Positions 29,755-54,174 of a stretch of DNA of 64,000 nucleotides are shown here, one piece after another (the first letter of the stretch is position 1; every line of letters starts with the position of its first letter). The stretch covers positions 310,001-374,000 of the forward strand of contig NZ_JACGWV010000001.1 of NCBI RefSeq assembly GCF_014137995.1. The letters are read 5' to 3'. The translations under genes and the position numbers were made by a program. This DNA is from Promicromonospora sukumoe (GTDB lineage: Bacteria > Actinomycetota > Actinomycetes > Actinomycetales > Cellulomonadaceae). Below the pieces are notes generated by a model that was not told where the DNA came from, did no database searches, and worked only from the letters and a program-made list of their open reading frames with translations.

Positions 29755-29951
29755 TCGCGCCCCCTCCACCGCCCCTGCAGCCGGGCAAACCGTATGGGGT
29801 CCGCGTACACGGGGCAAGGGGGCTGAGCAGACAATGCGGCGCGCGAGACCGATGAGATAGCAGTCCCTCACGGTTCGCTTGGACCCTTGTGAGGAGCATC
29901 GAGCAGCCGGAGTCCGGCTTTCAGGCCAGCGACATGCTGCTGGCAGATGGT

Positions 29952-38441: not shown

Positions 38442-39218
38442 TCATTGATGATCAAGCGCGGATACGAGATCTAGGGCCTGTCGTGTCTCTTTGACATCGT
38501 GCACCCGGACTATGCCGACGCCACGCCGCGCGCACTCGAGTGCAACCGCTACCGAACCACCGAGGCGCTCCTTCGGCCTGGGTTCACCCGTCAGTTCGCC
38601 GATGAACCGCTTCCTGCTGGCGCCGACGAGTACCGGGAATCCGGTGCTCACGAAGCGATCGAGGCCTTGTAGGAGCTCGATATTGTGCGCGACAGATTTT
38701 CCGAAGCCGATCCCGGGATCGATCAACACCTCTGGGGCGCCGCAGTCCATTGCCTGGTTTGCGGCCCGCAGGAGGTAGGTGAGGACCTCCGAGACGACGT
38801 CTTCGTAGTGTGGGCTCACCTGCATCGAGCCGGGCGTTCCCTGCATGTGCATCGCAACCCATGAGACACCGAGCCGACCAGCCAATTCCCCCAACGACGC
38901 AGAGACGTCATTTATCATCTTCGCACCATGCTCGACGGCGCTCTTGGCAACAATGGGATGTCTTGTATCAATAGAAACGGTGCCGTACTCCGAGAGGGCT
39001 TCCACCACCGGAACCACACGTCGGAGCTCGACCTGCTCTGGCACGGGCAGTGCTCCAGGCCGTGTGGACTCGCCGCCAACGTCGACGATCGCTGCTCCCT
39101 GCTCGAACATTTCGCGCCCACGGGCAATGGCCTCACCGTGATCTCGCCAATCGCCCCCATCCGAGAAGGAGTCCGGAGTGACGTTCAAGATCCCCATCAC
39201 GCTACAGTCCACAGTCAC
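38442..39218 (-). CDS. folP: Dihydropteroate synthase
   Basis: 258 aa from GTG 39218. All DHPS motifs are present: MGILNVTPDSFSDGG, AAIVDVGGESTRPG, INDVSA, DPGIGFGKS, GASRKRFIG and RVHDVKE, so it should join pABA and the pterin pyrophosphate to dihydropteroate. The length is normal. It is the last gene of thyX-MFS-pabB-folP, overlapping pabB by 17 bp, without the folB/folK/folE neighbours of the housekeeping locus. An extra DHPS can give sulfonamide-type resistance or feed a biosynthetic pathway. Confidence 0.95.
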   Translation of the reverse strand: MTVDCSVMGILNVTPDSFSDGGDWRDHGEAIARGREMFEQGAAIVDVGGESTRPGALPVPEQVELRRVVPVVEALSEYGTVSIDTRHPIVAKSAVEHGAKMINDVSASLGELAGRLGVSWVAMHMQGTPGSMQVSPHYEDVVSEVLTYLLRAANQAMDCGAPEVLIDPGIGFGKSVAHNIELLQGLDRFVSTGFPVLVGASRKRFIGELTGEPRPKERLGGSVAVALECARRGVGIVRVHDVKETRQALDLVSALDHQ

Positions 39219-40377
39219 GATGATCTCCTACCCGGTCATGGGCCTGCGCTGCGTACCCTGCTGAGCCGCGACAGGGTGTCTCAGATGACGCGAGGGCGAC
39301 GAGCCGTGATGCCTTGAGCTCGGTCTCGCTCCACTCCACAGACGGCACCGACCCCCATGTGATCCCTGCTCCTGTGCCGAACCGGAGCAGGCCGTCAGAC
39401 CACCAGAACGTGCGAATTCCTACCGCGATTGAAGCTCTGCCGTCCGCAACCCACCCCACTGCGCCGCAGTACGGTCCACGTTCCACTGGCTCAAGTTCCG
39501 AGATGATCCGGAGCGCGGACGACTTGGGCGCCCCTGACACTGAGCCGGGCGGAAAAGTTCCCTCGAGCAACACACGCCACATCTCGCTCGACGTCGCGAC
39601 CTTGCGGCGAACCACACCCTGGACTCGCGACACAAGATGAACGAGACCCGGATGGTGCTCGATACCAAGCAGGGACGTCACTTCGACGGTGCCGGGTTCG
39701 CAGACGGTGTGCAGATCATTCCGCACGAGGTCGACGATCATGACGTTCTCTGCCCGATCTTTATCAGCGAGCTCTGCAACCGTCGGTGCGGTTCCTTTGA
39801 TAGGGCTCGAAGATACGACGGTCCCGGACGGAGTCGGATCGATCGACAAGTAGAGTTCTGGCGAGGCGCTGACTACCCATACCGGATCGACCCCTGTAGA
39901 TGCCGGAACATGTATGGCGGCTGAGTGTGGTGCGGGGTTTCCCTGGGCGAGCAGCTTCGCTAACGCCCACGCATCTGGCTCGGGGTCACCGTGAAGCGGC
40001 GCGGAGAGCACGCGGCATATGTTCGCCTGGTACACCTCGCCGGCACGGACGTAGTCGCGGACCCTCGCCACGGCCGCTATGTACTCGGCCCGGTCCATGG
40101 ACGAGTTCCATGACTCCGGACTGGGACCAGCCCACTCGTGCCGACCAGTGGGTTCTTTAGTCCACGGTGGTTCGCCCGCCGATCTCGACATGCTCTCGAA
40201 CCGCCACGCCTTGATCGTCCCTTCGAACGTCCCCACCACGAACCAGTTTCCCTCACCGAGCTTTTCCGGGGCAGCGAGCACATCGATGCACTCAAGGACG
40301 CCAAAAGCAATGTTGTCGCCGAACGTCGCCCATCCAGAATCAAGCTCTGTGCTCAGGAGGCTCCGTTGCTCCCTCAT
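39202..40377 (-). CDS. pabB: Aminodeoxychorismate synthase component I (PabB-type)
   Basis: 391 aa, shorter than PabB proteins with a full N-terminal domain but with a complete chorismate-binding core: SSPIKGTAP (Lys of PIKGT marks PabB rather than anthranilate synthase), RAENVMIVDLVRNDL, GTFPPGSVSGAPK and GPYCGAVGW. It should add ammonia to chorismate, giving 4-amino-4-deoxychorismate. No glutaminase (PabA) or lyase (PabC) gene is nearby, so it would use host partners or free ammonia. The C-terminal 25 residues beyond the fold overlap folP. It overlaps the MFS gene by 4 bp. Confidence 0.93.
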   Translation of the reverse strand: MREQRSLLSTELDSGWATFGDNIAFGVLECIDVLAAPEKLGEGNWFVVGTFEGTIKAWRFESMSRSAGEPPWTKEPTGRHEWAGPSPESWNSSMDRAEYIAAVARVRDYVRAGEVYQANICRVLSAPLHGDPEPDAWALAKLLAQGNPAPHSAAIHVPASTGVDPVWVVSASPELYLSIDPTPSGTVVSSSPIKGTAPTVAELADKDRAENVMIVDLVRNDLHTVCEPGTVEVTSLLGIEHHPGLVHLVSRVQGVVRRKVATSSEMWRVLLEGTFPPGSVSGAPKSSALRIISELEPVERGPYCGAVGWVADGRASIAVGIRTFWWSDGLLRFGTGAGITWGSVPSVEWSETELKASRLVALASSETPCRGSAGYAAQAHDRVGDHRDCGL

Positions 40378-41639
40378 GGTTTGTCACGGCTCCCGTCCAC
40401 TGCGGTATCAGCCGTGGCCAGCGTGGCGCGAAGCGAGCGTAGACCCGCAATGAGCAGGTGAGCAGTGATCGCGAGCAGGAGCAGCCGAAGTGCCCCTGCT
40501 ATGGGATAGGTGGCGCGTATACCTATTAGCGCTGCGGTAAGGCCGCCTGCGGCCGCGCCCAGTGGGATCGTGCCCCAACTTATCAGGCGATACACGCTGT
40601 TCACCCGGCCGAACAGCTCGGACGGAACGGACTCCTGGCGAATCGTGACGGTGAGGACGTTCCACTGGACCGACGAGAAACCCACTACGATCAGCAATGC
40701 GGCGAGCGATGCGAAGTCGTCCACGAAGCCGATCGCCAGGAAACTGAGACCTGTAGCCGTCAAAGATCCGATGAGTGTGGCACCCTCGCCAACTGATTGA
40801 ACGATCCGGTTGTTCGCGATGCCCCCGAGAATGCTCCCGGCAGCGATCGCTGTGAGTGCGATGCCGAACATGTGAGCAGGTAGACCAAGCGAGGTGGTCA
40901 CAACTAGCACAAGAGTGACGGCAGCGAACTGATTACAGAAGTTGTTTGCGCCGAGCAGTACCGCGAGAGTGCGAAGGAGGCGATCGCGTACCAGGTACTT
41001 GATCCCCGCGCCGATTTCTTGCCGGAACGTTCCTCGCGACGCTCTTTCGGACGTCGGCACCTGAAGCCGTCCGAGACTGAGAATTGACACGGCATAGGTG
41101 ACTGCGTTACCGACGACAGGAACGATCGCGGCGACTGAGAATAGAGCGCTGCCGAGAGGTGGGCCCACGAACGACCTGGCGACCGTCTGCGCAGTGTACT
41201 GAGCACTGTTTGCCTGCTGAAGCTGTTCCTTCGAAACCATCTGCGGCAGCACCGCCTGGAAAGCGTTCCCCGCCAGAACGTCTGCCGTGCCGATGATGAA
41301 GGCCAGGACCACTAGGAGGCCGATCTCCAGTGCGCCTGTCGCCAACAGTACCGCGATGATGGCCACAGCTAGCATCTGAACCGATTGGGTCCATCTGATG
41401 ATCTGCATACGGTTCCAACGGTCCACCAGCACACCGGCGTGCAAGGAGAAGAGGAGCCACGGCAGGTAGGCTGACGCCGTTACGAGGCCGATTTCGAACG
41501 GGTCGCGGGTAAGAGCTAAAGCGAGCAGTGGCGTCGTGGCCGCCATCATGCCGTCGCCGAGCTCATTGGACGTCGTGGCGATCCACAGACGCCAGTATTT
41601 TCTTGGGAGGTCCTTGAGTTTTCTGCGTGGTCCCGCCAT
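40374..41639 (-). CDS. MFS transporter, EntS-like (MFS_3) exporter family
   Basis: 421 aa from ATG 41639, chosen because AGGAG lies 6 nt upstream. About 11-12 hydrophobic helices. The first-loop motif AGVLVDRWNRMQII resembles the MFS signature GxLaDRxxRR, and the N-terminal SNELGDGMMAATTPLLALAL is typical of the enterobactin-exporter-like family, often drug or siderophore exporters. Within a thyX-MFS-pabB-folP operon it is the obvious candidate exporter for the cluster product, or an antifolate efflux pump. Substrate unknown. Confidence 0.9.
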   Translation of the reverse strand: MAGPRRKLKDLPRKYWRLWIATTSNELGDGMMAATTPLLALALTRDPFEIGLVTASAYLPWLLFSLHAGVLVDRWNRMQIIRWTQSVQMLAVAIIAVLLATGALEIGLLVVLAFIIGTADVLAGNAFQAVLPQMVSKEQLQQANSAQYTAQTVARSFVGPPLGSALFSVAAIVPVVGNAVTYAVSILSLGRLQVPTSERASRGTFRQEIGAGIKYLVRDRLLRTLAVLLGANNFCNQFAAVTLVLVVTTSLGLPAHMFGIALTAIAAGSILGGIANNRIVQSVGEGATLIGSLTATGLSFLAIGFVDDFASLAALLIVVGFSSVQWNVLTVTIRQESVPSELFGRVNSVYRLISWGTIPLGAAAGGLTAALIGIRATYPIAGALRLLLLAITAHLLIAGLRSLRATLATADTAVDGSRDKP

Positions 41640-41687
41640 TGGCACTCCTCTGTAACTGATGAGTGAAGGGATAGTGCCTAGGTAGGG

Positions 41688-42425
41688 TTAGGGTGCTACG
41701 CGTCCGTTGCTGTTGAAGGCCGCGTGGGTCAAGGGCATGAGCTCAGCCCACTGCGCCTCCATCGCCTCCGCCACCATTTCGATCTCGCGTTGCGGGAAGG
41801 TGGGGACAGTGGATTCCGCGTGGGTTGTCCGAAGGGACAGAAAGTGCATCAGGGCCCGCGCGTTGCAAGTCGCATACATCGACGAATAGAGGCCCACAGG
41901 GAGCGCCGATCGGGCAACTTCTCTCGCGACACCGGCGTCGAGCATTTCGCGGTACGCCTCGTACGCGGTCACATACGAGCGTTCGAGCGCCGTGCGGGTT
42001 ACTGTGTGCTGATCATCGGTACCGGGCGAAAAGTGGTATCGCCCGGGACGGCCCTCCTGCACGAGGTTGCGTTCCTCGTTCGGCATGTAGAACACCGGCT
42101 CGAGCTCACGGTACCGCCCACTCTCCTCGTTGTAGGAGAATCCGACACGGTGACGGTGAAACTCGCGGAAAACGAAAATCGGTGCACTGATGAAGAAGGT
42201 CATCGAGTTATGCTCAAACGGAGTCCCGTGACGGTCCCTCATCAGGAAATTGATCAGTCCCTTCGAGCGTTCGGCGTCCGAGTTGACGTCGTCGAGAGAT
42301 CGATCTCCCAGCGTAGAGACACGTGCCGCGAATGCTACGTCAGAGTCTTGGGCGGAATGGCGGACCAGCTGTGCCGTAATATCGCTGCGGACGCTGATGC
42401 TTGCGGACTTTTCGCTTGTGTTCAC
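41688..42425 (-). CDS. thyX: FAD-dependent thymidylate synthase ThyX
   Basis: 245 aa from GTG 42425 (AGGAG 4 nt upstream); the frame extends further but that part is not protein-like. The ThyX signature is present as RHRVGFSYNEESGRY, preceded by HGTPFEHNSMTFFISAPIFVFREF. ThyX methylates dUMP using methylene-tetrahydrofolate and FADH2 and releases tetrahydrofolate, so thymidylate synthesis continues without DHFR turnover. First gene of the minus-strand operon. Having it beside DHFR, DHPS and PabB copies suggests bypass of folate-pathway inhibition. Confidence 0.95.
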   Translation of the reverse strand: MNTSEKSASISVRSDITAQLVRHSAQDSDVAFAARVSTLGDRSLDDVNSDAERSKGLINFLMRDRHGTPFEHNSMTFFISAPIFVFREFHRHRVGFSYNEESGRYRELEPVFYMPNEERNLVQEGRPGRYHFSPGTDDQHTVTRTALERSYVTAYEAYREMLDAGVAREVARSALPVGLYSSMYATCNARALMHFLSLRTTHAESTVPTFPQREIEMVAEAMEAQWAELMPLTHAAFNSNGRVAP

Positions 42426-42644
42426 GGGACTCCTGTTGGTTCCGGTTGAAGTGCTTGGGAAAACGGCGTTCGAGCAGACGTGGGAGCCCTGGACATCTTC
42501 TAGGCGAGCCGGCGCCCATGGTAGCGGCAAGGGCGCGGAGCGGGCATGACTAGTCGTGGGATCGTTCCGGCTGCTGCCTAGGTCCGTGCGTGTTGGCGCT
42601 GCTTTCGATGCCCCTGTCGGCGGGTGCCGCTACGCCGGCTGTCG

Positions 42645-42764
42645 TCAGGGCAGCGCGAGCGCGTGGGACTGCGCTGTGGCCTCGTGCAGCGCGGACCACA
42701 CGTTCCGAGCGGCGACGCGTCCGACGAACACCTCCGTCTGGCGCCAGTCGGGAATCATGCTCAC
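42645..42764 (-). CDS. Possible short peptide gene between divergent operons
   Basis: 39 codons from GTG 42764, peptide VSMIPDWRQTEVFVGRVA… ending ALALP. Nearly every third codon position is G or C, as in real genes here, although the region around it looks noncoding. There is only a weak GAGAG before the start. It may be a genuine peptide, perhaps related to the cluster product, or the surviving end of a lost gene. Confidence 0.25.
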   Translation of the reverse strand: MSMIPDWRQTEVFVGRVAARNVWSALHEATAQSHALALP

Positions 42765-43157
42765 GGGGAAGCTCTCGGGATGACCGAGGCCAGGCCCTGG
42801 CGACGGTCCTGCTCGCACGGCGCGTGCGGAACGAGCGTTCAATCGAGCATCTCCCACGATCGGGGAGGGAACCTGTCCAGGCGCCTGGTGTGGCTCTTGC
42901 GCGTTGCTCGAGATCTGCCCGGAGCGCACCCCAGGGACTCGGGCGTGTTCGACCATCGTCGCTCGCGTATGCCATCCGCGGCCAGGACGCGCTGTTGGCC
43001 AGCCACCGGCCAGCCAAGGCAGGTCAAGTACAAGTCTTGGCTGTCTCCGGATAGTGCCGAATCTACCCCTAGGGCTGGTCTGTGACGGATGCTACAGTCC
43101 TGCCTTGGCACCAGCGCGTTTGTCCGCACCTGAGTCGTCGGCGAGAGACAGGTAGAG
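42765..43157. other. Divergent intergenic region of the folate cluster
   Basis: This lies between the thyX operon and the radical SAM operon and must contain promoters for at least the latter. TACAGT at 43092-43097 is a candidate -10 box about 60 bp upstream of the radical SAM ATG. No THF or other riboswitch fold is recognised. Confidence 0.35.
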
Positions 43158-44681
43158 ATGTACGAGCATCCCATGTATCACTGGCCCCCGAAGTCGCGAT
43201 GGACGCAGGAGCTGCCGGACTCGATGGTGTGGCCAGATTTCAGTGCCTATGTGCACTTCCCGTACTGTCGAAGCATCTGCGACTTCTGCAACTACGAGAC
43301 GCGACTCATTAACAAGCGTGGCGTCAGTTCGTTCGGCGCAGCAGCTACCGCTGAGATCAGGCAGTTCGGTGAGTGGGCGGACTTCTCTAAGTCTCGCCTG
43401 CGTAGTGTGTTCTTCGGAGGCGGTACCGCCTCGCTCATGCCTGGCGACACGATGGCCGCGATCCTGGACGAGTTTCGCGGGATCGGATCCGTCGAGGAGA
43501 TCCCCGAAGTCACGCTGGAGTGCGAGCCGGGCACGATTCGCTCGGATGCGCTTGCCGCCGCCCGGGTGGCGGGCGTGAACCGCATCAGTGTCTGTGCACA
43601 GAGCTTCAATGATGATGAGCTTGCTCGAATAACGAGGAAGCACTCCGTCGCTGACTCGTTGCGTCTCATTGATGACGCGGTCTCGGCAGGCATATCTAAT
43701 CTGCACCTCGACCTAATGTATGGGCTGCAGGGGCAAAGCGTAGGGGACTGGGAGAAGACGCTTAGGCGCGCGGTCGAGCTGCCGTTCGTTCACGTGTCGG
43801 CATACAAGCTCTACGTCTTCAAGTACGGTGCGGTCGACCGGTCAGGACAGGTACCTCGTCCCGATGAGGAGACGCCGGAACAGACGGCGCGCTTCCGCGA
43901 GATGCACGATCTGGCGCAGGCGATACTTCACGAGGCGGGGTATGAGCAGTACACGCTCACTGAATGGGCCCGTCCCGGGTACAAGGCGACCTACCTCACT
44001 GACACGTTCAGCGGGGGAGCCGTTCTACCGATTGGGCCGTCCTCGTTCGGCCGAGCCAACGACACCGTTTGGCACAACAGTTCCTACGTGCACCAGTACT
44101 CACAGCAGGAATCTTGGGCAGCGCGTCGTCGTGGTATTGATCTCAGCCCGGCCGAGGCGTTCAAGCGGAACGTCATACTCGGGCTCTGGCTTCTGGAGGT
44201 TGACCTCGAATCACCGGCCGTGCTTCGAGGATCCGGAGGTTCGGCGCAGCTGATGGAGCTCTTGAGACACCAGGCCGACCAGGGCCGCGTCGATTTCGAC
44301 GGACGACGGGTGAAGCTGCGTCCAGGCCAGCGATTCGACGCCGGGCAGGTCATGCGTGAGCTGTCCGAGCTCGACGCCGAGGCCTGGCTGCGGGACGAGG
44401 GAGAGCCTGAGGATCCGAGTAGCAACACCCTCAACCCCAGGATGTCATCACTTGTACGAATCCTTCGAAATGATCCGGCGCTGTACAACGAAGTCGTCGA
44501 AACGCCTGACACGACGGTCCGTCGGGTGGCCACAGGAATCGGCGATGATGAAGTGGGTGAACTGATCGCCGCGGTTCGTGGTGACCATCAGGCAGCTTCG
44601 CCTGCCATGCGCGAACTCTGGGAGCAGGTCCAGTCCGAGCATGTCTCGCGCAGGCGCGCTCGTGCGAGGCTGTCGGATTGA
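43158..44681 (+). CDS. HemN/HemW-like radical SAM enzyme
   Basis: 507 aa. The 4Fe-4S motif is CRSICDFCNY (CxxxCxxC) after FSAYVHFPY, followed by SVFFGGGTASL (the GGE-like SAM motif), TLECEPGTI, GVNRISVCAQSFND and LDLMYGLQGQ: all hallmarks of the HemN/HemW group. That group includes coproporphyrinogen dehydrogenase, HemW haem chaperones and class C radical SAM methyltransferases of natural-product pathways. It leads the plus-strand operon with a TGATG overlap to the next gene. The C-terminal 150 residues are longer than in HemW. In this context a biosynthetic class C role is more likely than haem metabolism; inferred. Confidence 0.9.
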   Translation: MYEHPMYHWPPKSRWTQELPDSMVWPDFSAYVHFPYCRSICDFCNYETRLINKRGVSSFGAAATAEIRQFGEWADFSKSRLRSVFFGGGTASLMPGDTMAAILDEFRGIGSVEEIPEVTLECEPGTIRSDALAAARVAGVNRISVCAQSFNDDELARITRKHSVADSLRLIDDAVSAGISNLHLDLMYGLQGQSVGDWEKTLRRAVELPFVHVSAYKLYVFKYGAVDRSGQVPRPDEETPEQTARFREMHDLAQAILHEAGYEQYTLTEWARPGYKATYLTDTFSGGAVLPIGPSSFGRANDTVWHNSSYVHQYSQQESWAARRRGIDLSPAEAFKRNVILGLWLLEVDLESPAVLRGSGGSAQLMELLRHQADQGRVDFDGRRVKLRPGQRFDAGQVMRELSELDAEAWLRDEGEPEDPSSNTLNPRMSSLVRILRNDPALYNEVVETPDTTVRRVATGIGDDEVGELIAAVRGDHQAASPAMRELWEQVQSEHVSRRRARARLSD

Positions 44682-45454
44682 TGCAGAGAACTACGACCAC
44701 CAGTGGCAGTGACACGCTGCCACTGGTGGTCGACATCCCCCATGCGGGCCGCATCTACCCGTCAGACTTTGAACCACTGGTGGAGCCGAACGCGGTGGCG
44801 CTCACCGAGGACCGGCTGGTCGATGTCTTGTTCGCCCCACTCATGGACCACGCGAGATACACGACCGTCTCCCGGGTCGGCCGCTCATACCTCGACGTGA
44901 ACCGCCCACGCGATGCCGGGTCGGGGGTCTTTCGCCGGAGGACTCTCGATGGACGGAAACTGCAGGCGGACGTCGGCGTTGATGCTGCGCGAAAGCGACT
45001 CACACTGTGGGATGCCTACCACAAGAACGTTGATACGGCACGGAGGCGGACGATCGCCCAGCACGGATGGGGCGTCCACCTGAACCTCCACTCGTTCCCA
45101 TCGACCGACTGGCACACGGCAGGCTGCCCGCCCATGCCATTCGAGATCGAGGTCGGAGACCTGAATGGCAGGACCGGCGGACGCCTGACACGGCATCTGG
45201 TGCGGGCTCTCCACGGCGAAGGATTCCGCGTGGGCGTGAACGAGACCTTCAAAGGAGGCGAGATCGTCCGTCGTGGCCGAACGGAGCAAGCCATCGACAC
45301 GATTCAGCTGGAGGTGCGTCGCGACCTCTACCTACGAGACGACCTCTACCTCGATTGGAGCAAGATGATCTCCTCCCGCAGGAGGCTGATGCGAGCAATC
45401 TTCGGTGCGGTGTCTGAAGCGTACGCCCAGCCTTCTCCTCAGAAGGCCGCCTAG
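44681..45454 (+). CDS. N-formylglutamate amidohydrolase family protein
   Basis: 257 aa, start overlapping the radical SAM stop. Family motifs: PLVVDIPHAGRIYPSDF, then SRVGRSYLDVNRPRDAG, GVHLNLHSFPSTDW, and FKGGEIVRRGRTEQAIDTIQLEVRRDLY at the C-terminus. These enzymes hydrolyse N-formylglutamate or related N-acyl amino acids with a metal; some act as amidohydrolases in natural-product pathways. Histidine-utilisation genes are absent here, so formylglutamate from His breakdown is not its likely substrate; a formyl or acyl derivative made by the cluster is more plausible. Confidence 0.88.
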   Translation: MQRTTTTSGSDTLPLVVDIPHAGRIYPSDFEPLVEPNAVALTEDRLVDVLFAPLMDHARYTTVSRVGRSYLDVNRPRDAGSGVFRRRTLDGRKLQADVGVDAARKRLTLWDAYHKNVDTARRRTIAQHGWGVHLNLHSFPSTDWHTAGCPPMPFEIEVGDLNGRTGGRLTRHLVRALHGEGFRVGVNETFKGGEIVRRGRTEQAIDTIQLEVRRDLYLRDDLYLDWSKMISSRRRLMRAIFGAVSEAYAQPSPQKAA

Positions 45455-45951
45455 TGCGTTCGATCATCGTCATAGGAGCAGTCGCGAACGGACGCGTCGC
45501 CGGCCTCAGCGGGAGGATGCCATGGCATGCCCCCGCCGACCTGCGCAGATTCCGGCAACTTACTCTGGGCAAGGCGGTGGTCATGGGCTACCGAACCTGG
45601 AAGTCCCTGGACGGGCCGCTTGGCGGCCGGCGGAACATCGTCCTCGCCAGGGAGAGGACTGCTTCGGCGGCCGGGGCTGTCCTCGCGGGTTCGCTAGATG
45701 AAGCGCTGGCTGCGGTCGACGACGAGACCGATGTCTGCCTCATCGGGGGAACGGAAGTGTGGTCCGCGGGCCTCGACATAGCTGACTCGCTGCGTCTGAC
45801 TCACATCGACGCAGACTATCCAGGTGACACGTTCTTCCCGGCGATTGATTTGCGCGTCTGGCACGAGACGGACCGCATCGAGACGCTCTCTGCAGTCGAT
45901 GGGGTCGATCGGAAGATCTCGTTCATCGACTACGTTCGAGGTGACAGATGA
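45454..45951 (+). CDS. folA: Dihydrofolate reductase
   Basis: 165 aa from GTG 45454, which overlaps the preceding TAG. It shows the DHFR pattern: VIGAVANGRVAG, MPWHAPADLRRF (the Asp of PADL is the folate-binding acid), VVMGYRTWKSL, NIVLAR and VCLIGGTEVW. Length is normal. It reduces dihydrofolate to tetrahydrofolate. Together with FolP, FolC, PabB and ThyX it nearly completes a parallel folate/thymidylate branch. Whether it is trimethoprim-insensitive cannot be read directly. Confidence 0.94.
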   Translation: MRSIIVIGAVANGRVAGLSGRMPWHAPADLRRFRQLTLGKAVVMGYRTWKSLDGPLGGRRNIVLARERTASAAGAVLAGSLDEALAAVDDETDVCLIGGTEVWSAGLDIADSLRLTHIDADYPGDTFFPAIDLRVWHETDRIETLSAVDGVDRKISFIDYVRGDR

Positions 45952-46751
45952 GCGGGCCTGTCGAAAACAATGACATGGCGCTGTCGCTATTTCACCGGTA
46001 TTCGGATACAAGAGCCAAGACCATCAGTTCTCTCACAGCGCTGTGGGCCGGCCGGCTGGCGGGGACCGAGAATCCGCACATCGTAGATTTCGGTGCAGGT
46101 GATGGGCAGCTGCTCGCTCACTGCTTGCGACAGATCGGAACTCGCGCACGGGTAACGGTTGTTGAGCCCGAGGATGAGCTCGCCGCTCGGGCACTGGTGG
46201 ACCTTCGTGAAAGGGGGCACCAGGCTTCGCGGAGGTCTGACATCAAGGCTGCCGTGAGCGACCGGCCCGCGAACGCGATACTTGCTGCTCACGTCCTCTT
46301 CTACGTGACAGATTTGTCCGGATGGATGCACAGCGCGCTGGAAGGACTCGCCCCAGCGGGCTCGGTCAGTATCGTCATGCGAAACCCAGGATGCGACGCT
46401 TTCCGACTCCGTGCCCTGGTACGTGCTCGCGAGGGGACACCTCCGCGATTCACCTCGAGCAGCATCGAGAGATTCGCTCGGCAGGCCGCGGTCACCTGTT
46501 CAAGCACCGAAATCAAGTCCACACTAGAAATCCCGTGCCAGTCGCCCCCGAAGATTGAGAACGTTCCCGCCGCATCACAGAACGAAGACCTCGCGGCGCT
46601 GGTGTGTTGGATGACCGCGCTGCCATTCCACCTGCCGATGGCACCGGGACTGCATCTCGAGCTCAGTGACTACCTGAGCACACGGTGGTCGGACGGAGTG
46701 ATCAAGCTTGATCTGATCGACGATCTGCTGGAGCTAGCTCGTGACGCATAG
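45948..46751 (+). CDS. Class I SAM-dependent methyltransferase
   Basis: 267 aa, overlapping the DHFR gene by 4 bp. The Rossmann motif I is VDFGAGDGQLLAHCL, acidic residue of motif II in VTVVEPEDE, and motif IV around ANAILAAHVLFYVTDLSGWM, followed by the usual GSVSIVMRNPG strand. The C-terminal part is specific to this protein. It resembles small-molecule O/N/C-methyltransferases. Its place in a folate/radical SAM/ATP-grasp cluster suggests it tailors the product. Confidence 0.85.
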   Translation: MSGPVENNDMALSLFHRYSDTRAKTISSLTALWAGRLAGTENPHIVDFGAGDGQLLAHCLRQIGTRARVTVVEPEDELAARALVDLRERGHQASRRSDIKAAVSDRPANAILAAHVLFYVTDLSGWMHSALEGLAPAGSVSIVMRNPGCDAFRLRALVRAREGTPPRFTSSSIERFARQAAVTCSSTEIKSTLEIPCQSPPKIENVPAASQNEDLAALVCWMTALPFHLPMAPGLHLELSDYLSTRWSDGVIKLDLIDDLLELARDA

Positions 46752-47988
46752 GTCAACGGCCGAGGATGTGCTTTCGGAGCGATTTCCCGCCGTAATCTCA
46801 GGCGAATACGATCTGGACGCGATCAGGTCGCTGCTCGCTCGCCTAGGCAACCCGCAAGATCGATACCTGAGCGTGCACGTCGCAGGTACCTCGGGGAAAT
46901 CTACGACCTGCACGTTTACGGAATCGATACTACGCCACTCCGGGATCAGGACGGGGCTGATGGTTTCGCCTCACGTGCTGACTATCCGAGAGCGGTTCCA
47001 GATCAATGGCGAGCTGCTGGAGGTCGCGAGCTTCGAGACGCACCTCGAGAACTTCCTATCGCGACTGGACTCGATCGGCGATATGCGGGTCAGCTATTTC
47101 GAGGTGACGACAGCCCTAGCGTTCTGGATATTTGAGCGCGAGCAGGTCGAGTGTGCTGTTGTCGAAGTCGGCCTGGGAGGGCTAATCGACCCGACCAACA
47201 CCATAACGAGGCCCGACAAGATCGGCCTCATCTCTGCGATCAGCTTGGATCACACCGAAATCCTCGGGGACACGGTCGAGGAGATTGCATCCGAAAAGGC
47301 CGGAATAGCGCAGCCGGCCAACTGTGTCTACGTCATTGAACAGTCCTCCTCGGTGCTGAGCACGATCGAAAGCGTGGCCGTCGCTCGAGGTGCGGAGGTA
47401 AGGATCGTGCCCGTGCAGGGAGAGGCGCGGCTACCTGGCAACTACGATCGGCGGAACCATCTTCTTGCGGCGGCCGGGGCTGCGCACGCACTGGAGCAAC
47501 TTGGGCGCGCGAGCGACGCTACGCCTGGACCAGTGCTGCCGGCCCCTGTTGGTAGATTCGATTTCGCAGAAGTTGCGCCAGGCTCTGGCCTTCTCGTCGA
47601 TGGTGCGCACAACCAGGATGAGTTGCGAGCCCTGGGCGCTCGAATAGCGTCAAGCCAGCTGGAAGACTTCCGGATCGCACTAGCGTTTACCGACACGACA
47701 GACGAAAAGCTAGCCGGGATGCTGGACGCGATCTCCTCCATGGGGGCACCAATGGCGGTCACTGCCTACCGGTCACGGCTGGGTGGAATGAAGCGCGCGG
47801 CCGATCCACTGCGTGTAGGCGCCATTGCGGCCGATCGTGGAATCAGGCTTCACATCGAGCCGTCCGCTCCACTTGCGTTCCAATGGGCGCTCGAAGGCCC
47901 CTCGCCTAAGGGCCTCGTGGCGGGCTCACTCTATCTGGCGGCCGAAGCGATTGTCTGGGCGGATGAACGAACGCGAAGGAATGCTTGA
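46741..47988 (+). CDS. folC: FolC-like (dihydrofolate/folylpolyglutamate synthase family) ligase
   Basis: 415 aa, overlapping the methyltransferase gene by 11 bp. Family order is clear: P-loop VAGTSGKSTT (usual FolC: GTNGKGS), LMVSPHVLTIRERFQINGEL, VVEVGLGGLIDPTNTI (usual GLGGRLDATN), SLDHTEILGDTVEEIASEKAGI, and VDGAHNQDEL. These Mur-ligase-like enzymes couple glutamate to dihydropteroate or folate. The altered P-loop and LID(P)TN in place of LDATN make a changed substrate possible. Either a resistance copy or a ligase for a folate-like or peptide product; I am sure of the family, not the substrate. Confidence 0.88.
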   Translation: MTHRSTAEDVLSERFPAVISGEYDLDAIRSLLARLGNPQDRYLSVHVAGTSGKSTTCTFTESILRHSGIRTGLMVSPHVLTIRERFQINGELLEVASFETHLENFLSRLDSIGDMRVSYFEVTTALAFWIFEREQVECAVVEVGLGGLIDPTNTITRPDKIGLISAISLDHTEILGDTVEEIASEKAGIAQPANCVYVIEQSSSVLSTIESVAVARGAEVRIVPVQGEARLPGNYDRRNHLLAAAGAAHALEQLGRASDATPGPVLPAPVGRFDFAEVAPGSGLLVDGAHNQDELRALGARIASSQLEDFRIALAFTDTTDEKLAGMLDAISSMGAPMAVTAYRSRLGGMKRAADPLRVGAIAADRGIRLHIEPSAPLAFQWALEGPSPKGLVAGSLYLAAEAIVWADERTRRNA

Positions 47989-48011
47989 GCCGGATCGTTC
48001 GAAACGAGGTC

Positions 48012-49001
48012 CTACGTCGTCGTCGCGAGAACGATGGGGTTGGGCCACCTGGTGGTGGAGTCGGTGACCTCAGAATGGGCCGCTCCTGGGCGGGTCCGGC
48101 TTGCGGCATCAATGGCTGAGGCTGCTCGGAGCGCGAGGGCCTGGCACGATTCGACGAGGCTCACCGGCAAGAACTTGCTGGCCGTACGAACTGGACCGGT
48201 AGTAGTGAGCCATGCTCCCTTCGAGTCTGGACTTCTCTCGGCAGGGACCGAGGCGATCCTTATGAGCGGCGGAAGAGCGACGCCCGCTGCGACGTAGACC
48301 CGAAGATCGTAGTGATAGTGGCGTCCGCTGATCTCGATCTGCGAGGGCTCAAGCCAGGGCTGGACCATCATTGCTGGGTCGGCCACGAAGTTCGACGCTT
48401 TCACCCGCAATACGCCTTCGCTGCTCGAGCCTGCCACCGGCTTGGTGATGAGGTACTCATGCCCACCCGGGACGAAACCGTCGATCGACTCTACGTGCGG
48501 CACTCCTGCCTCTGCCAGAACCAGCTCCGTCTTCAACTTGTCTACGCAGATCTCGCGGACCGCGCGCGCGTTGACGTTCTGCAATCCTCGCTGAAGGTCG
48601 GGAACACGGCCCGACCGATCCCAGACAAGCGCTCGCTCGGGGACCGTCTCAAGCCGGTTGGCGATATGACGAATGTCTGTGACGGTCACTTCGCATATTC
48701 CTTGAAGTGACTCGCTGATGAGCCCTATATCCTCCAGGAGGAGCCGGACCCGAGAATCGGACAAGCTCGCGACGTTGGAGGCGACGAGAGGATCGGACGT
48801 CGTTCCCTGTTCTATCTCGTAGCCGAGCGGAAGAAATATCTCGACAGACTGGAACCCCGCTGCGAGTCCTCGAATTGCTTCGATTGTCTCGGAGCGGGGC
48901 TCCAGTCTCGCAATGCCGACCGGGCGATCATTGATCTCGATCACTCTTGGTGAGCCATCAGCGGTCAACAGTATGTCAACGCCGAGATACTTGGCCGACA
49001 T
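48012..49001 (-). CDS. ATP-grasp ligase, apparently circularly permuted
   Basis: 329 aa from ATG 49001. The ATP-binding segment is EYLITKPVAGSSSEGV, followed by the metal-site region SGRHYHYDLRVYVAAG. The segment that normally ends the fold, GVDILLT…PRVIEINDRP (Glu-x-Asn), is at residues 6-27, and the C-terminus (…RAASAIDAASR…WPNPIVLATTT) lacks it, ending in a strand like a pre-ATP-grasp start. This is what a circular permutation would give. ATP-grasp enzymes form amide or ester bonds via acyl phosphates. It follows a small peptide gene by 16 bp, so that peptide is its likely substrate or carrier. Confidence 0.78.
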   Translation of the reverse strand: MSAKYLGVDILLTADGSPRVIEINDRPVGIARLEPRSETIEAIRGLAAGFQSVEIFLPLGYEIEQGTTSDPLVASNVASLSDSRVRLLLEDIGLISESLQGICEVTVTDIRHIANRLETVPERALVWDRSGRVPDLQRGLQNVNARAVREICVDKLKTELVLAEAGVPHVESIDGFVPGGHEYLITKPVAGSSSEGVLRVKASNFVADPAMMVQPWLEPSQIEISGRHYHYDLRVYVAAGVALPPLIRIASVPAERSPDSKGAWLTTTGPVRTASKFLPVSLVESCQALALRAASAIDAASRTRPGAAHSEVTDSTTRWPNPIVLATTT

Positions 49002-49017
49002 CGGTTGGTTCTGTGTC

Positions 49018-49242
49018 TCAGAGGACAGCGAGAAGCTTGGCCTGGTCCGCGGCCACGTCTGCGTCTTCCGAGAACGTGTTCGTCGCCAGGAACTCCTCGA
49101 TGCTCGAGATCGCGGCGTCCGAGAGAAGGATTCCCTCGGCATCCAGCGTCGCAACCGGCGACGCCTTGAACGACCCGGCGAGCTCAGGGTGCTCGGTGAG
49201 GTGCGATGCGACGGTGGAGAAGGTTGACTTCGAGACTGCCAT
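49018..49242 (-). CDS. Small acidic peptide, candidate precursor or carrier for the ATP-grasp ligase
   Basis: 74 aa starting MAVSKSTFSTVASHLTEHPE, with an excellent AAGGAG ribosome-binding site 6 nt before the ATG; the frame is open upstream but that part is not protein-like. Predicted helices (ISSIEEFLATNTF) and an acidic region (SEDADVAADQAKLLAVL) at the C-terminus; no Cys. The size and position next to an ATP-grasp gene suit a RiPP precursor or an amino-acid carrier/scaffold peptide of the LysW or pearlin sort, though it has neither LysW zinc pairs nor a phosphopantetheine Ser motif. A 25-bp dyad overlaps its promoter region. Confidence 0.72.
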   Translation of the reverse strand: MAVSKSTFSTVASHLTEHPELAGSFKASPVATLDAEGILLSDAAISSIEEFLATNTFSEDADVAADQAKLLAVL

Positions 49243-49268
49243 GTGTTGCTCCTTCGGATTGAAAGAGT

Positions 49269-49293
49269 AGCCCTTCTTACGGTAAGCAAGGCT
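49269..49293 (-). promoter_or_regulatory. Dyad-symmetric operator upstream of the peptide gene
   Basis: AGCCCTTCTTAC-G-GTAAGCAAGGCT: two 12-bp arms matching at 10 of 12 positions around one central base, 27 bp before the peptide's ATG. It coincides with where the -35/-10 region would be. No regulator gene is evident in the cluster, so the binding protein may be elsewhere. Confidence 0.6.
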
Positions 49294-49615: not shown

Positions 49616-52219
49616 TCAGCCCTGCAACAGCGCTGCGGCCTCGCCCCTGCGTGCTTGGGCTTCGGTTCGGTAACCGTTGGCGTCCAGGACATCGGCGATG
49701 GTGTGCAGCACGGTGGCGAGCGATCGTGCTGCGGGCAGGAGGTTCTCGGGCCGGGTGTCGCTGGTGCGCCAGTCGAAGAGACGTGCCGCTTCCTGTGCCG
49801 GGGCGAGCGCGTCGGCGGGCTGCCCGGACGCTAGCTGCATGCGGGCCAGGCCTGCCAGGGATTCGGCCAGTGCGGTGAAGGTGTTGTGGTCGGGGTGCTG
49901 GCTGACCAGGTCGCGTTCGATGGTGATGGCCTCGCGGTAGGCGTGGTCGGGCTGGGTGGTGTGGCCGGCGTCGCGGTGTGCGGTGGCGGCCTGGCGGAGG
50001 GACTTGGCGAGGTCGGGGGTGTGACGTTCGGGGTTGGTCTCGGCGAGCCGGCGACGGACCTCGACCGATTCCTGTGCGGGTGCGATGCCGTCCTGGGGTT
50101 GGCCGTTGTTGACCAGGCAGGAGGACAGCTCGGTCAGGGCTCGGGCGAGGAAGACGAGCTCGGCGTCGGGGTTCTCGCGGGCCAGGGCACGGCGGATCTG
50201 CACGGTGTGCTGGATCGCGGGTAGTGCCTGGGCGGGCTGGCCGAGCATGTTCTGCGCGATGGCGAGGTTCATCAGTGACCGGGCCAGGTGTGGTGTGGCG
50301 CGTTCGGGTTCGCTGCGGGCCAGGTCCTGGTTCAGGTTCACCGACTCTTGCAGCGGGGCAATGGCTTGCTGGGGGAGACCGGCCTCGTGGTACCTGGTGC
50401 CGAGGTCGCACAGGGTCCGGGCGAGGTGGGGCAGGTGGGTGGTCCGGTCGCTGCGGGCCAGGCGTTCCTCGATCTCGACGGCCTCGAGCGTCGGGGGCAG
50501 CGCGTCATGTGCTCTACCGAGCTCGGACAGGACCACGCCGGCGTAGCGCAGGGAGGCTGCGAGCTGGGCCTCGTGCCGGGCGGGATCTGCGTCTGCTAGT
50601 GCACGGCGTGCGTCGACGGCTTCGGAGAGGGGTCCGATGGCCTGGGCCAGGCGCCCGAGCCGGTACAGGCGCATCCCGATGTCGTGCAGGACCCAGGACC
50701 TGGCGGCAGTGTCGGCAGGGTCGATCAGGTGCAGGATCCGGTACAGGACGGTCAGGTCGGACTGGGTCAGGACCTCGGAGGGGTAGGGGATGACCGCGGA
50801 GACCGACCGCAACAGTTCCAGGTCGTCTGGGAGTGCACCGATCGCGTGGTCCAAGAGGTGCAGGGCGCGGGCACGGACGGCCTGATCGGAGAAGTGATCG
50901 GCCACCGACCGGGCCAGGACAGCGACGGCGTGGCGTGCGTTGCGTCCGTCGAGGTCCTCCAGCAGGCTCGCCGTCAGGGTGGGCGACGCGCTGAGCTCGG
51001 TGACCAGGTGGAGCTCGGCCATGCGGTCCGGCTGCAGGGTCCCGACCCAGTGCTCGGTGTCGCGGGCCGGGTACAGGTCACGCAACCAGCGCAGCACCTT
51101 GACGGTGGCCGCCCCGGGATCGACCCGGGCCAGGAGCCGGCGTGCTTCGGCCTCGTCGGACGGCGGGGCGAGGTAGACGGCGGCCACGACATGGCGCAGC
51201 ACCTCGACGGTCAGGCCTTCTGGCCCTTCCAGGAGCCCGACCTGGTCGGCGGTGCCGACCCAGTGCCGCTGCTCGTGCCGGAGCAGGTCGGTCAGCACAT
51301 CGGCAACGTCGACCGCCAACGGTCCCTCGCCGGTGGTGCTGTCCTGTGAGCGTTGCGTGCGCAGAACCGCGACCAGACCTGCCGCGTGCAGGTCCAGGAC
51401 GCGACCTTGCCCGTGTTCCCCACCGCCGAGCTGGACCTGCGGTGCAGGGATGCCGAGCTGGCCGGCGAACGCGGTCGCAGCCTCGCGGACGATCTGCCGG
51501 TCGGTGACGGCCGAGTCGATCTGCACGGGCAGGTCGATCCCGTCGTACGCGTCCTGGAGCATCTCCCGGACATGCGGTTCACCGACCGCCAGGCGTTGCC
51601 ACCACTCGCCCGCGCTGCGTGCGATGAGCAGCACCCGCACACCGGACGGGTCCGCGGCGACCTGCCGCACCAGGTCATCGAGCTCGTGACGGGTGTCGGC
51701 GTAGTCGACGATCAGCAGCACCGGTGCGGTGGTCGAGTCGCGCACCCGTGCCAGGATCGTGGCCTCCTGCTCCTCGCCGACCGCGACACAGTCCCAGCCC
51801 TGCCGGGTCATCAGCTCCTTGAGCTCGGCCGCCAGCCGGCTCTTGCCGACACCGCCCGGCCCGGTGACAAGACGCAGGGGAGAACCGTCCTCGAGGCACC
51901 AGCGCACCAGCGCCTCCAGCTCACCGGTCCTGCCCTGGAACGGGACGACCTGACGGTCCGGGGTCAGCAGGCTCGCCGGGCCGCCCTCACGCCGCAGCAG
52001 CGCGGACGACTCGATCACGGCCCGCCGCGCGGCCTGCCGTGCCTGGCGGGCATGCCACCACCGCGTCACGAACGGAGCGGCCGCCGAGACGCTCCCGGTG
52101 AGCACACCCAGGACCAGCAACGGCACGCTGCCCTCCGCGATCGCGAAGACCCCCGCCGCCAGAGCCGCGAACCCGGCCGCCACCAACCACCACCCGGGGC
52201 GCAGACGCAACCCATCCAT
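49616..52219 (-). CDS. Membrane-anchored STAND NTPase with C-terminal TPR array
   Basis: 867 aa. Two N-terminal transmembrane helices (GWWLVAAGFAALAAGVFAIA and VPLLVLGVLTGSVSAAAPFV) are followed by a linker and a NACHT/NB-ARC type domain: P-loop VTGPGGVGKSR near residue 120, Walker B VLLIVDYAD, and LLIARSAGEWW as sensor. About 350 C-terminal residues form TPR repeats with a P-A-R/E-H pattern (AIAPLQESVNLNQDLARSEPE, GIAPAQESVEVRRRLAETNPE). Same architecture as 457-2649 but not a close copy. The ATG has TAGATA 9 nt upstream, suggesting a short leader. A defence-type sensor is inferred. Confidence 0.88.
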   Translation of the reverse strand: MDGLRLRPGWWLVAAGFAALAAGVFAIAEGSVPLLVLGVLTGSVSAAAPFVTRWWHARQARQAARRAVIESSALLRREGGPASLLTPDRQVVPFQGRTGELEALVRWCLEDGSPLRLVTGPGGVGKSRLAAELKELMTRQGWDCVAVGEEQEATILARVRDSTTAPVLLIVDYADTRHELDDLVRQVAADPSGVRVLLIARSAGEWWQRLAVGEPHVREMLQDAYDGIDLPVQIDSAVTDRQIVREAATAFAGQLGIPAPQVQLGGGEHGQGRVLDLHAAGLVAVLRTQRSQDSTTGEGPLAVDVADVLTDLLRHEQRHWVGTADQVGLLEGPEGLTVEVLRHVVAAVYLAPPSDEAEARRLLARVDPGAATVKVLRWLRDLYPARDTEHWVGTLQPDRMAELHLVTELSASPTLTASLLEDLDGRNARHAVAVLARSVADHFSDQAVRARALHLLDHAIGALPDDLELLRSVSAVIPYPSEVLTQSDLTVLYRILHLIDPADTAARSWVLHDIGMRLYRLGRLAQAIGPLSEAVDARRALADADPARHEAQLAASLRYAGVVLSELGRAHDALPPTLEAVEIEERLARSDRTTHLPHLARTLCDLGTRYHEAGLPQQAIAPLQESVNLNQDLARSEPERATPHLARSLMNLAIAQNMLGQPAQALPAIQHTVQIRRALARENPDAELVFLARALTELSSCLVNNGQPQDGIAPAQESVEVRRRLAETNPERHTPDLAKSLRQAATAHRDAGHTTQPDHAYREAITIERDLVSQHPDHNTFTALAESLAGLARMQLASGQPADALAPAQEAARLFDWRTSDTRPENLLPAARSLATVLHTIADVLDANGYRTEAQARRGEAAALLQG

Positions 52220-52902: not shown

Positions 52903-54174
52903 TCAGAGGAGCACCTCTCGAACGGCGCCTCCTGTCGTCGACGAGAGCAGTCGGAGGGTAGGGACGTAAGAGGGGCGTTGGGTGTCGTCCCATTCGTAGG
53001 CGGTGACACGTACGGTGTTGAGGAGAGATCCGACGAGGATCGCCATGGCAAACGGGCCGCGGACCAGCAGGTCGACCGCGGCGTTGGCGTTGGCGCTGGA
53101 GAACTCACGGATGCGGTAGGCCGCTTCGGCAGCCAGCTCGCCGGCCCTGGCCGGGTCGAGAGGGCCGTCGGTGATGTGTCGCAGGTGTGTCCATGTGGCC
53201 AGGGCGGACTGGTTCTCGTCGACGTATCTCTGGAAGGCGGTGTCGCTGCGTGGGGACATCAGGTCGAGGTAGACCGCGACGCGGGGGCGGCCGGCGAGGC
53301 TGTTGAGCTCGTGACTGGCACCGGTTGCTGCGACGGCAAGGGTCGGTGTGTCGGGCATCCGTGCGATGCCGTCACCAGTCCACGCCTGCCCGCGTTGGTC
53401 GATCACCTCAAGCTGGCCGATACGCGAAGTTGGCAGCGCCATGCCGAGGGCGAGAGCCACCGTGAGGTGGGCGCCGCCGGTGATTCTGACGCGCTTGGCA
53501 CCCGCTCGAGTGACGGCGGTCGGGAGGAGCTGGATGACATCGGCGAGATCTGTCAGGCCGTCGCTGCTCGGCAGCCGCTCGTGCGTTGAGGGGCGGACGC
53601 GGATGTCGAGTTCACTGCCCGTGCGGTCGTAGACCTGCGGAGTGTTGCGGGTCTGGACCGTGAGGTTGAACGTTGCATCGTTCGACTGGACTGCGGAGCG
53701 CCGATGCGCGATGCGGTGGAACACCATGCCCCGTACCAGTGCGATGAGGCCTTCGCGCGTGCTGTCCTTCTGGTCGACGCCTGTGAGGGAAACGGCGCTC
53801 TGACCAAGTACGCGGTCGGGTGCGCCGTAGTCGACAGATCCGGAGCCCTTCTGGACGGCGTTGACGATACCGAGGGCGAAGTCGTCGTAGGCCCGGTGCA
53901 GGTTGATGAGGCGCGGTGCTTCGACCTCGCGGATGACGCGACTGTGTTCGGCGTCAGGGGTGACGACAAGGACGGCGCCGGAGAGCCCGGAGTCGATGGC
54001 CTGCTTGAGACGCTCGTTGGTGTCGCCGGGAGGGAGGTCATCGATGTCACGCCACACGGGGATGCCTGCCGCGCGCAGGAGCCAAGCGAGCTCGGCAGTG
54101 GGTTGGGTGCCGTCGCTGTGGCGGTAGGAGATGAAGACCGGATCAGTGTGATCGAACTCGGTTGTTCCGGTCAT
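52903..54174 (-). CDS. cap12: CBASS effector: TIR-SAVED NADase
   Basis: 423 aa. The N-terminal TIR domain begins DPVFISYRHSDG and contains AAGIPVWRDIDDLPPGD and AVLVVTPDAEHSRVIREVE with the catalytic-type Glu. A linker of about 60 residues joins a SAVED domain (VRITGGAHLTVALALGMAL, VAVYLDLMSP, NAAVDLLVRGPFAMAILVGS). In known TIR-SAVED effectors a cyclic tri-nucleotide binds SAVED, the proteins form filaments and TIR cleaves NAD+, killing the infected cell. It overlaps cap3 by 4 bp and ends the operon. Confidence 0.93.
   Translation of the reverse strand: MTGTTEFDHTDPVFISYRHSDGTQPTAELAWLLRAAGIPVWRDIDDLPPGDTNERLKQAIDSGLSGAVLVVTPDAEHSRVIREVEAPRLINLHRAYDDFALGIVNAVQKGSGSVDYGAPDRVLGQSAVSLTGVDQKDSTREGLIALVRGMVFHRIAHRRSAVQSNDATFNLTVQTRNTPQVYDRTGSELDIRVRPSTHERLPSSDGLTDLADVIQLLPTAVTRAGAKRVRITGGAHLTVALALGMALPTSRIGQLEVIDQRGQAWTGDGIARMPDTPTLAVAATGASHELNSLAGRPRVAVYLDLMSPRSDTAFQRYVDENQSALATWTHLRHITDGPLDPARAGELAAEAAYRIREFSSANANAAVDLLVRGPFAMAILVGSLLNTVRVTAYEWDDTQRPSYVPTLRLLSSTTGGAVREVLL

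Follow-up and report, generated by a model that had tools for sequence, protein, structure and literature searches.

Why should an actinobacterium that already owns a set of folate genes carry a second one, placed around a radical S-adenosylmethionine (SAM) enzyme? The question is raised by eleven genes of Promicromonospora sukumoe (contig NZ_JACGWV010000001.1), which lie in a stretch of 64,000 nucleotides, C1:310001-374000 of the 6.5-Mb host genome, referred to here as the window. The genes span positions 38442-49242 in three blocks. The first, on the minus strand, is folP-pabB-MFS-thyX, where MFS denotes an exporter of the major facilitator superfamily. The second, on the plus strand, is radical SAM-FGase-DHFR-methyltransferase-FolC, where FGase stands for N-formylglutamate amidohydrolase and DHFR for dihydrofolate reductase; every gene of this block overlaps its successor by a few bases. 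The third, again on the minus strand, consists of a peptide gene and an ATP-grasp gene, a pair that is convergent with FolC. This gene set had been named in an original prediction made from the letters of the DNA, and family searches found all of it. We tentatively propose that the locus is a horizontally acquired cassette for the synthesis or use of a reduced folate or pterin bearing a chemical modification, with the class C radical SAM enzyme and the DHFR at its heart.

The distribution of the radical SAM enzyme was examined by a word-limited search of 5.8 billion proteins. Fifty-seven proteins (P0013-P0069, P0013 being the window protein itself) scored at least 245 bits, followed by a gap down to 174 bits, where HemW-like proteins set in. 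Those with an assigned organism are from Actinoplanes, Gordonia, Solirubrobacter, Gemmatimonadetes, Methylobacter and Roseobacter. A pattern scan with one genome per species over 84,980 species yielded 35 pattern matches and 11 confirmed loci. Three of these fall within the clade (L005 of Gemmatimonadota, L006 of Solirubrobacter and L007 of Roseobacter) and two are Bacteroidetes cousins at 31-32% identity (L008 and L009); the six others (L010-L015) share only 25-29% identity and were treated as HemN-like background outside the clade. A Methylobacter plasmid (L016) was the sole near-clade record among the best 20 of 404 plasmid records, the next standing at 29% identity, and with it and the window the in-clade loci number five. 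The gene was found in the query genome only, whether among 221 genomes of the host family, 396 of the host phylum, 295 of the family of Roseobacter or 151 of the order of Solirubrobacter, and the viral contigs held no relative of the protein. The enzyme belongs to a rare and very patchy subfamily.

In all five in-clade loci a DHFR gene adjoins the radical SAM gene or lies one gene off, with less than 1 kb between them; the intervening gene is that for the FGase in the window and a methyltransferase gene in L007. As a background rate, 15 of 60 sampled genomes of the host class, the host included, gave any DHFR match at all and 45 gave none. The conserved unit is the radical SAM enzyme with the DHFR, joined in part of the family by the peptide and the ATP-grasp enzyme. 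In the genomes of L005-L007 (G616, G617 and G618), where ThyX, the FAD-dependent thymidylate synthase, is present, the linked DHFR is the only one above the family cut-off. This count covers 3 of 3 genomes searched besides the host, with the Methylobacter chromosome left out, and is to be read with G617 having one further match at 23.7 bits (cut-off 25), with G616 being a metagenome-assembled genome and with possible gaps in the assemblies. When 23 DHFRs were placed in a tree, the enzyme of the window grouped with that of Solirubrobacter at a support of 95/93, which the Gemmatimonadetes enzyme joined at 80/56, and the host DHFR fell elsewhere. The genomes of the Bacteroidetes cousins have a DHFR away from the locus and no ThyX match. 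Most simply, DHFR activity is a requirement of the pathway, since the linked DHFR is the sole one above the cut-off in three genomes and the Bacteroidetes with an unlinked locus have one elsewhere.

Two of the loci share a small protein (L005:3-248 and L016:11574-11963; 46% identity over 80 residues, E 1.6e-17), whose gene immediately precedes that of the radical SAM enzyme and which is possibly a further partner.

A need for DHFR activity would also be met if folate served merely as a co-substrate. The chemistry of ThyA, the other thymidylate synthase, leaves dihydrofolate; comparably, methylene-tetrahydrofolate could donate a one-carbon unit and hydride, the DHFR would recycle the dihydrofolate, and the product would be folate-free. 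The linkage of DHFR where no other one exceeds the cut-off, in three genomes that all have ThyX, and its absence from the two Bacteroidetes loci, is the pattern expected if DHFR activity and not a DHFR target is needed. Against this explanation, the host of the window already owns a DHFR, and folP, pabB and folC are left unexplained. The residues for a second SAM molecule are also mostly kept in the radical SAM enzyme, so that SAM is likely the one-carbon donor. We regard a co-substrate role as quite unlikely.

The evidence on the radical SAM enzyme itself came from sequence and model comparisons. Its solved sequence relatives at E below 1e-10 were the class C methylase NocN (1.7e-47) and HemN (7e-41), and its AlphaFold2 model, with a mean predicted local distance difference test score (pLDDT) of 91.5, was closest to HemN (1olt; E 1.6e-23) when compared by Foldseek with a structure library current to April 2026. 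A role as a heme enzyme was rejected, as the protein reached 166.9 bits with the HemW model (cut-off 205.4) and 87.8 bits with the hemN model (cut-off 325). The CxxxCxxC motif is present in 39 of the 39 alignment rows that reach that part, the remaining 4 of 43 rows being gapped there. In NocN, the contacts to the second SAM include Tyr34, Tyr96, Arg153, Asp196 and Ser225 (PMC12871812). With these positions transferred to the subfamily through a HMMER alignment, all 43 relatives have the equivalents of R153, D196 and S225, and all 39 rows reaching Tyr34 have its equivalent. Eight further residues, which are not among these SAM contacts, are invariant in all 43 (H162, H183, H212, Y216, Q264, Y265, R337 and W344); such invariance is expected if the substrate is common to the subfamily. 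Since the second-SAM residues are mostly kept, the protein is likely a two-SAM enzyme that transfers one-carbon units, as class C methylases do. It shares with NosN/NocN, TbtI and C10P the CxxxCxxC motif, the HemN-like fold and most second-SAM residues, with NocN being the best solved relative by sequence. It is unlike them in forming a subfamily of its own with its own invariant residues, in its C-terminal domain resembling nitrile hydratase leader peptides (NHLP), and in having DHFR as a recurring genomic partner.

A methyltransferase gene accompanies the radical SAM gene at three of the five in-clade loci (the window, L006 and L007, that of L007 being of another sort); none was seen beside it in L005, a 3.6-kb contig, or in L016. 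The methyltransferases of the window and of the Solirubrobacter locus, where the gene also accompanies that of the radical SAM enzyme, are 30% identical (E 6e-30 / 8e-30). The pair in the window recalls C10P/C10Q, a cyclopropanase in which a radical SAM enzyme works with a partner methyltransferase (PMC6050322).

The third block was analyzed in the same manner. The peptide gene stands directly before the ATP-grasp gene on the same strand in the window, L007, L008 and L009. The C-terminal domain of the radical SAM enzyme matches the free 87-residue proteins of the Bacteroidetes loci (hmmsearch E 2.5e-18 and 2e-17 for a database size of 1; hhalign 5.8e-13), a domain that is missing from the radical SAM proteins of those loci. 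As the domain is homologous to the free peptides and missing where they were matched, peptide and enzyme are linked by a fusion or split. The 74-residue peptide of the window is probably a divergent relative of the same domain. When it was compared with the domain alone, 5 of 1000 shuffled sequences scored higher. It ranked first among 5000 shuffles against a hidden Markov model (HMM) of the L007-L009 peptides plus the domain (8.3 vs 7.2 bits) and against one of the three peptides (10.4 vs 9.9 bits), a narrow margin in each case, with 4842 and 4920 shuffles, respectively, reported with a score and with a resemblance that had been seen by eye beforehand.

These similarities raise the question of whether the peptide is the precursor of a ribosomally synthesized and post-translationally modified peptide (RiPP), with the radical SAM enzyme modifying it, the ATP-grasp enzyme acting as its ligase, and the folate enzymes as passengers or as a one-carbon supply. 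The pairing of peptide and ligase in four loci would fit this idea, as would a weak local similarity of the 87-residue L008 and L009 peptides to NHLP-clan precursors (Os17/NHLP leader). The scores were 22.6 and 22.9 bits with NF038399 (cut-off 40; E 6.5e-5 and 8.1e-5) and 18.0 and 17.3 bits with TIGR03793 (cut-off 50.9; E 0.002-0.003). None of them comes near its curated cut-off, and for the peptide of the window the NHLP-clan models gave no match. The present proteins further differ from such precursors in that the same domain is also fused to an enzyme, and the four peptides end in dissimilar C termini, with no core region standing out. As the ATP-grasp profile also finds nothing for three of the five in-clade loci (see below), a RiPP pathway seems very unlikely to us.

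The ATP-grasp protein is a putative ATP-dependent amide ligase in which the Mg-binding ExN strand is N-terminal, ahead of the ATP-binding part, as in a circular permutation. In VIA-align, its model could be superimposed from residue 1 onward, in sequence order, on ligases of the glutathione-synthetase type, and among the matches listed no unpermuted ligase stood above the best permuted ones. Known permuted ligases (eukaryotic-type glutathione synthetase, GshA, glutathionylspermidine synthetase and YgiC/YjfC) are 10-18% identical in matches listed from residue 1; the window enzyme is unlike them in being paired with an NHLP-like peptide. Profile comparison gave weak matches to tubulin ligases, positions 210-302 with their 145-241 (E ~0.1) and 3-28 with 312-337 of one of them (E 0.52), which supports the permutation weakly at the sequence level. 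A broken or rearranged pseudogene was rejected as an explanation of the permuted order, which recurs in L007, L008, L009 and four database proteins; the ATP-grasp residues are kept in 8 of 8 proteins. The predicted model also matches in sequence order Cp1B, an ATP-grasp enzyme that joins a small acid to amino acids (PMC12568646). Carrier-protein biosynthesis of the LysW/LysX type differs, as LysX matches from residue 52 only, which we read as not permuted, and as the peptide C termini are not conserved here. A word-limited protein search with the window enzyme returned only itself, a four-sequence profile returned 6 proteins, including those of the window and L008, and the profile found the query genome only among 299 genomes. 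Among plasmids no match was found for the methyltransferase or for the ATP-grasp relative P0135; FGase and FolC relatives there were at about 33% identity or less among the matches listed.

We explored the possibility that the folate genes of the cluster are there for protection. ThyX, DHFR, dihydropteroate synthase (DHPS), FolC and PabB are targets or bypasses of antifolates. The cluster could make an antifolate from an unrelated scaffold and carry these five as drug-insensitive spares; self-protection was one of two inferences of the original prediction, a folate-like product being the other. Genome searches found separate housekeeping copies in the host, in line with the original prediction, and the notion that the cluster holds its only folate genes was rejected. 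Besides the cluster copy the host has DHPS genes, one of them beside GTP cyclohydrolase (FolE); a DHFR in the same stretch as ThyA; a further FolC; and a PabB-like enzyme adjoining an aminotransferase class IV gene that we read as PabC. For ThyX the cluster gene is the sole match. Each of the five cluster enzymes has a housekeeping counterpart in the host, ThyA being that of ThyX. An exporter is also at hand in the MFS protein, and the cluster enzymes differ strongly from those of the host in the case of DHFR (39% identity), FolP (45% to the host folP adjoining GTP cyclohydrolase, 36% to another) and FolC (36% over 199 residues). However, PabB is 66% identical to the host copy, and DHFR accompanies the radical SAM enzyme at every one of the five in-clade loci. 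In G616, G617 and G618 the linked DHFR is the only one above the cut-off; with no other DHFR found that would need protection in these ThyX-containing genomes, the role of a drug-proof spare is difficult to assign to it. Host duplicates support the earlier proposal of self-protection by a spare pathway and the sole DHFRs weaken it, and we consider it somewhat unlikely. Among the readings we rank a radical SAM pathway directed at folate or pterin first, with self-protection next.

Abyssomicins are polyketides, and the present locus is unlike their clusters in that no polyketide gene is among its eleven genes. Abyssomicin-type clusters are a likeness on another count, in that actinobacteria make with them a natural product that targets the chorismate/folate pathway (PMC6100094). 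Word searches of the open-licence literature, judged by titles and abstract openings and with subscription papers outside their reach, turned up no paper about a cluster such as this one.

Whether the eleven genes belong together at all was addressed by their composition. They are uniform, with a GC content of 0.60-0.64 and a third-codon-position GC content (GC3) of 0.67-0.83. Host housekeeping genes, drawn from a list pre-filtered at GC3 > 0.8, are at GC3 0.95-0.98 (ThyA 0.97, GTP cyclohydrolase 0.98, PabB 0.95, PabC 0.98). Since the composition is uniform and unlike that of these host genes, the block looks like one foreign, horizontally acquired unit. The flanking genes of the window are intermediate (GC3 0.67-0.87; total GC 0.665-0.714), and therefore the wider area is also not core-like. 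The contrast between PabB and the less similar DHFR, FolP and FolC, in their identities to the host copies, suggests that parts of the cluster may have been acquired on separate occasions. Chance might even have brought two or three foreign operons with no relation to one another side by side, for example folP-pabB-MFS-thyX next to the genes from radical SAM to FolC. The seemingly different history of PabB would agree with such an assembly, and so would the lack of the added genes near the radical SAM gene elsewhere (see below). The uniform GC and GC3 across all eleven genes argue against it, as do the position of FolC inside the radical SAM operon with its overlapping frames and the convergence of the peptide/ATP-grasp pair on FolC; we hold chance assembly to be highly improbable.

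Several observations weigh against a folate- or pterin-directed radical SAM pathway. Homologues of folP, pabB, folC, thyX, FGase and MFS were not found by tblastn (E up to 0.1) in the six loci L005-L009 and L016, examined as stretches of 19-25 kb, except for L005 with its 3.6 kb. These added genes were thus seen in the window alone, and the full spare folate pathway of the original prediction is not the conserved trait. Conservation of the set with the ATP-grasp/peptide pair stood in part: Roseobacter L007 has the radical SAM enzyme, DHFR, methyltransferase and the pair, and lacks detectable folP, pabB, folC and thyX. The ATP-grasp profile found nothing in the L005 and L006 genomes or in the L016 plasmid record, and therefore the peptide/ligase step is not universal. 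The Bacteroidetes cousins have no DHFR nearby; tblastn with the window DHFR found nothing at the eight distant loci L008-L015. The branch of the tree that sets the five linked DHFRs together on one side has support of only 35/8, and the L007 enzyme is on a long branch. The equivalent of NocN Tyr96 is Phe in 42 of 43 relatives and Tyr in one; it was not taken as class-defining because the contact is described for NocN alone. Finally, none of three L008 neighbors scanned is a pterin enzyme.

At the second Bacteroidetes locus, L009, a gene for PTPS, a pterin enzyme, lies 26 bp upstream of the ferredoxin-like gene that precedes the radical SAM cousin, which speaks in favor of the folate- or pterin-directed pathway. 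Both loci encode this two-cluster ferredoxin-like protein (L008:9261-9962 and L009:9258-9962), a probable electron donor.

Returning to the folate- or pterin-directed pathway, its steps might run as follows; we infer their order, the product with its activity, and a folate or pterin as the substrate on which the radical SAM enzyme acts, and place the FGase, methyltransferase and MFS steps by analogy. PabB with the host PabC would supply p-aminobenzoate, which FolP would couple to a dihydropterin from the host; FolC would add glutamate, and the DHFR would carry out a reduction step. The radical SAM enzyme and the methyltransferase, in the manner of C10P/C10Q, could then transfer a one-carbon unit from SAM to an sp2 carbon. 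An amide may be trimmed by the FGase-like hydrolase, the ATP-grasp enzyme may form an amide bond on, or aided by, the peptide, and the MFS pump would export the product. ThyX would keep thymidylate synthesis going if the product blocks ThyA or DHFR. PabB, FolP, FolC and ThyX would have been added at this locus for supply, protection or both. A more specific version, which we consider unlikely, has the modified folate tied to or built on the NHLP-like protein by the permuted ATP-grasp enzyme and exported as a folate antimetabolite, with supply and immunity provided by one gene set and with a core that travels between phyla.

The positions and family matches of the cluster are collected in Table 1. 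From sequence similarity the putative family assignments are clear except for the PabB-like, FGase-like and radical SAM proteins.

Table 1. Features of the cluster, with positions in the window.
Feature	Position	Strand	Family match or remark
folP, dihydropteroate synthase, second copy	38442-39218	-	Pterin_bind 246 bits; TIGR01496 296 bits (cut-off 163)
pabB-like chorismate-binding enzyme (aminodeoxychorismate synthase I type)	39202-40377	-	Chorismate_bind 207 bits
MFS exporter (predicted)	40374-41645	-	MFS_3 115 bits; MFS_1 78 bits
thyX, FAD-dependent thymidylate synthase	41688-42425	-	Thy1 159 bits; TIGR02170 196.7 bits (cut-off 87.9)
HemN-like radical SAM enzyme, likely class C methylase type	43158-44681	+	C-terminal helical NHLP-like domain, about residues 425-506
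FGase/HutG-like hydrolase	44681-45454	+	Pfam FGase 124 bits
Perfect 16-nt inverted repeat with 7-nt loop	44694-44732	+	just past the FGase start codon
DHFR linked to radical SAM enzyme	45454-45951	+	Pfam DHFR_1 144 bits
Class I SAM-dependent methyltransferase	45948-46751	+	Methyltransf_23 41 bits
folC-like dihydrofolate/folylpolyglutamate synthase, second copy	46741-47988	+	TIGR01499 236 bits (cut-off 163)
Circularly permuted ATP-grasp ligase (putative)	48012-49001	-	
NHLP-like peptide, 74 residues	49018-49242	-	immediately upstream of ATP-grasp gene; start codon follows GAAGGAG

The PabB-like protein scores below the cut-off of every PabB model listed, and the FGase-like protein reaches 49.3 bits with the HutG equivalog model TIGR02017, whose cut-off is 278.8. 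ThyX passes the cut-off of its equivalog model TIGR02170. Its gene has a GTG start behind AGGAG, in a reading frame that is open to 42530. The canonical ThyX signature is RHRX7S, with seven residues between RHR and S; the cluster protein has eight and the Roseobacter ThyX (L031) seven, and a pattern script found no motif in L032, L034 and L035. The RNA of 121 nt around the inverted repeat (44650-44770) folds with z = -4.8 relative to 200 shuffles. The repeat is not an ordinary terminator because no T-run follows it, and it could tune the translation of the FGase and the genes downstream. No Rfam family, riboswitch or other, was found in the window.

Beyond the cluster, type I restriction-modification genes (methyltransferase, specificity and restriction subunits) lie at 14439-20685. 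At 52903-56574 there are TIR-SAVED, E1-E2 and E2 proteins, which resemble an anti-phage module of the cyclic-oligonucleotide-based signaling (CBASS) type. With these two modules the area looks like a defense island. A large protein at 27001-29871 is polymorphic-toxin-like, with a C-terminal Tox-REase-2 domain (Pfam, 38 bits), and tetratricopeptide (TPR) repeats and STAND-like NTPase matches, several below Pfam cut-offs, occur at 457-2649 and 49616-52219. The cluster had been predicted to sit in a mobile island. Its foreign composition and defense-gene neighbors support this only in part; no tRNA was found in the window.

Folate enzymes are long-proven drug targets, and to our knowledge natural products built from folate are almost unknown. 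Should a folate or pterin prove to be what the radical SAM enzyme acts on, the cluster would represent new folate chemistry and could yield a natural antifolate together with the genes for immunity to it. Even otherwise, the conserved pairing of a radical SAM enzyme with a DHFR across phyla poses a clear and testable puzzle, namely which dihydrofolate or dihydropterin is reduced.

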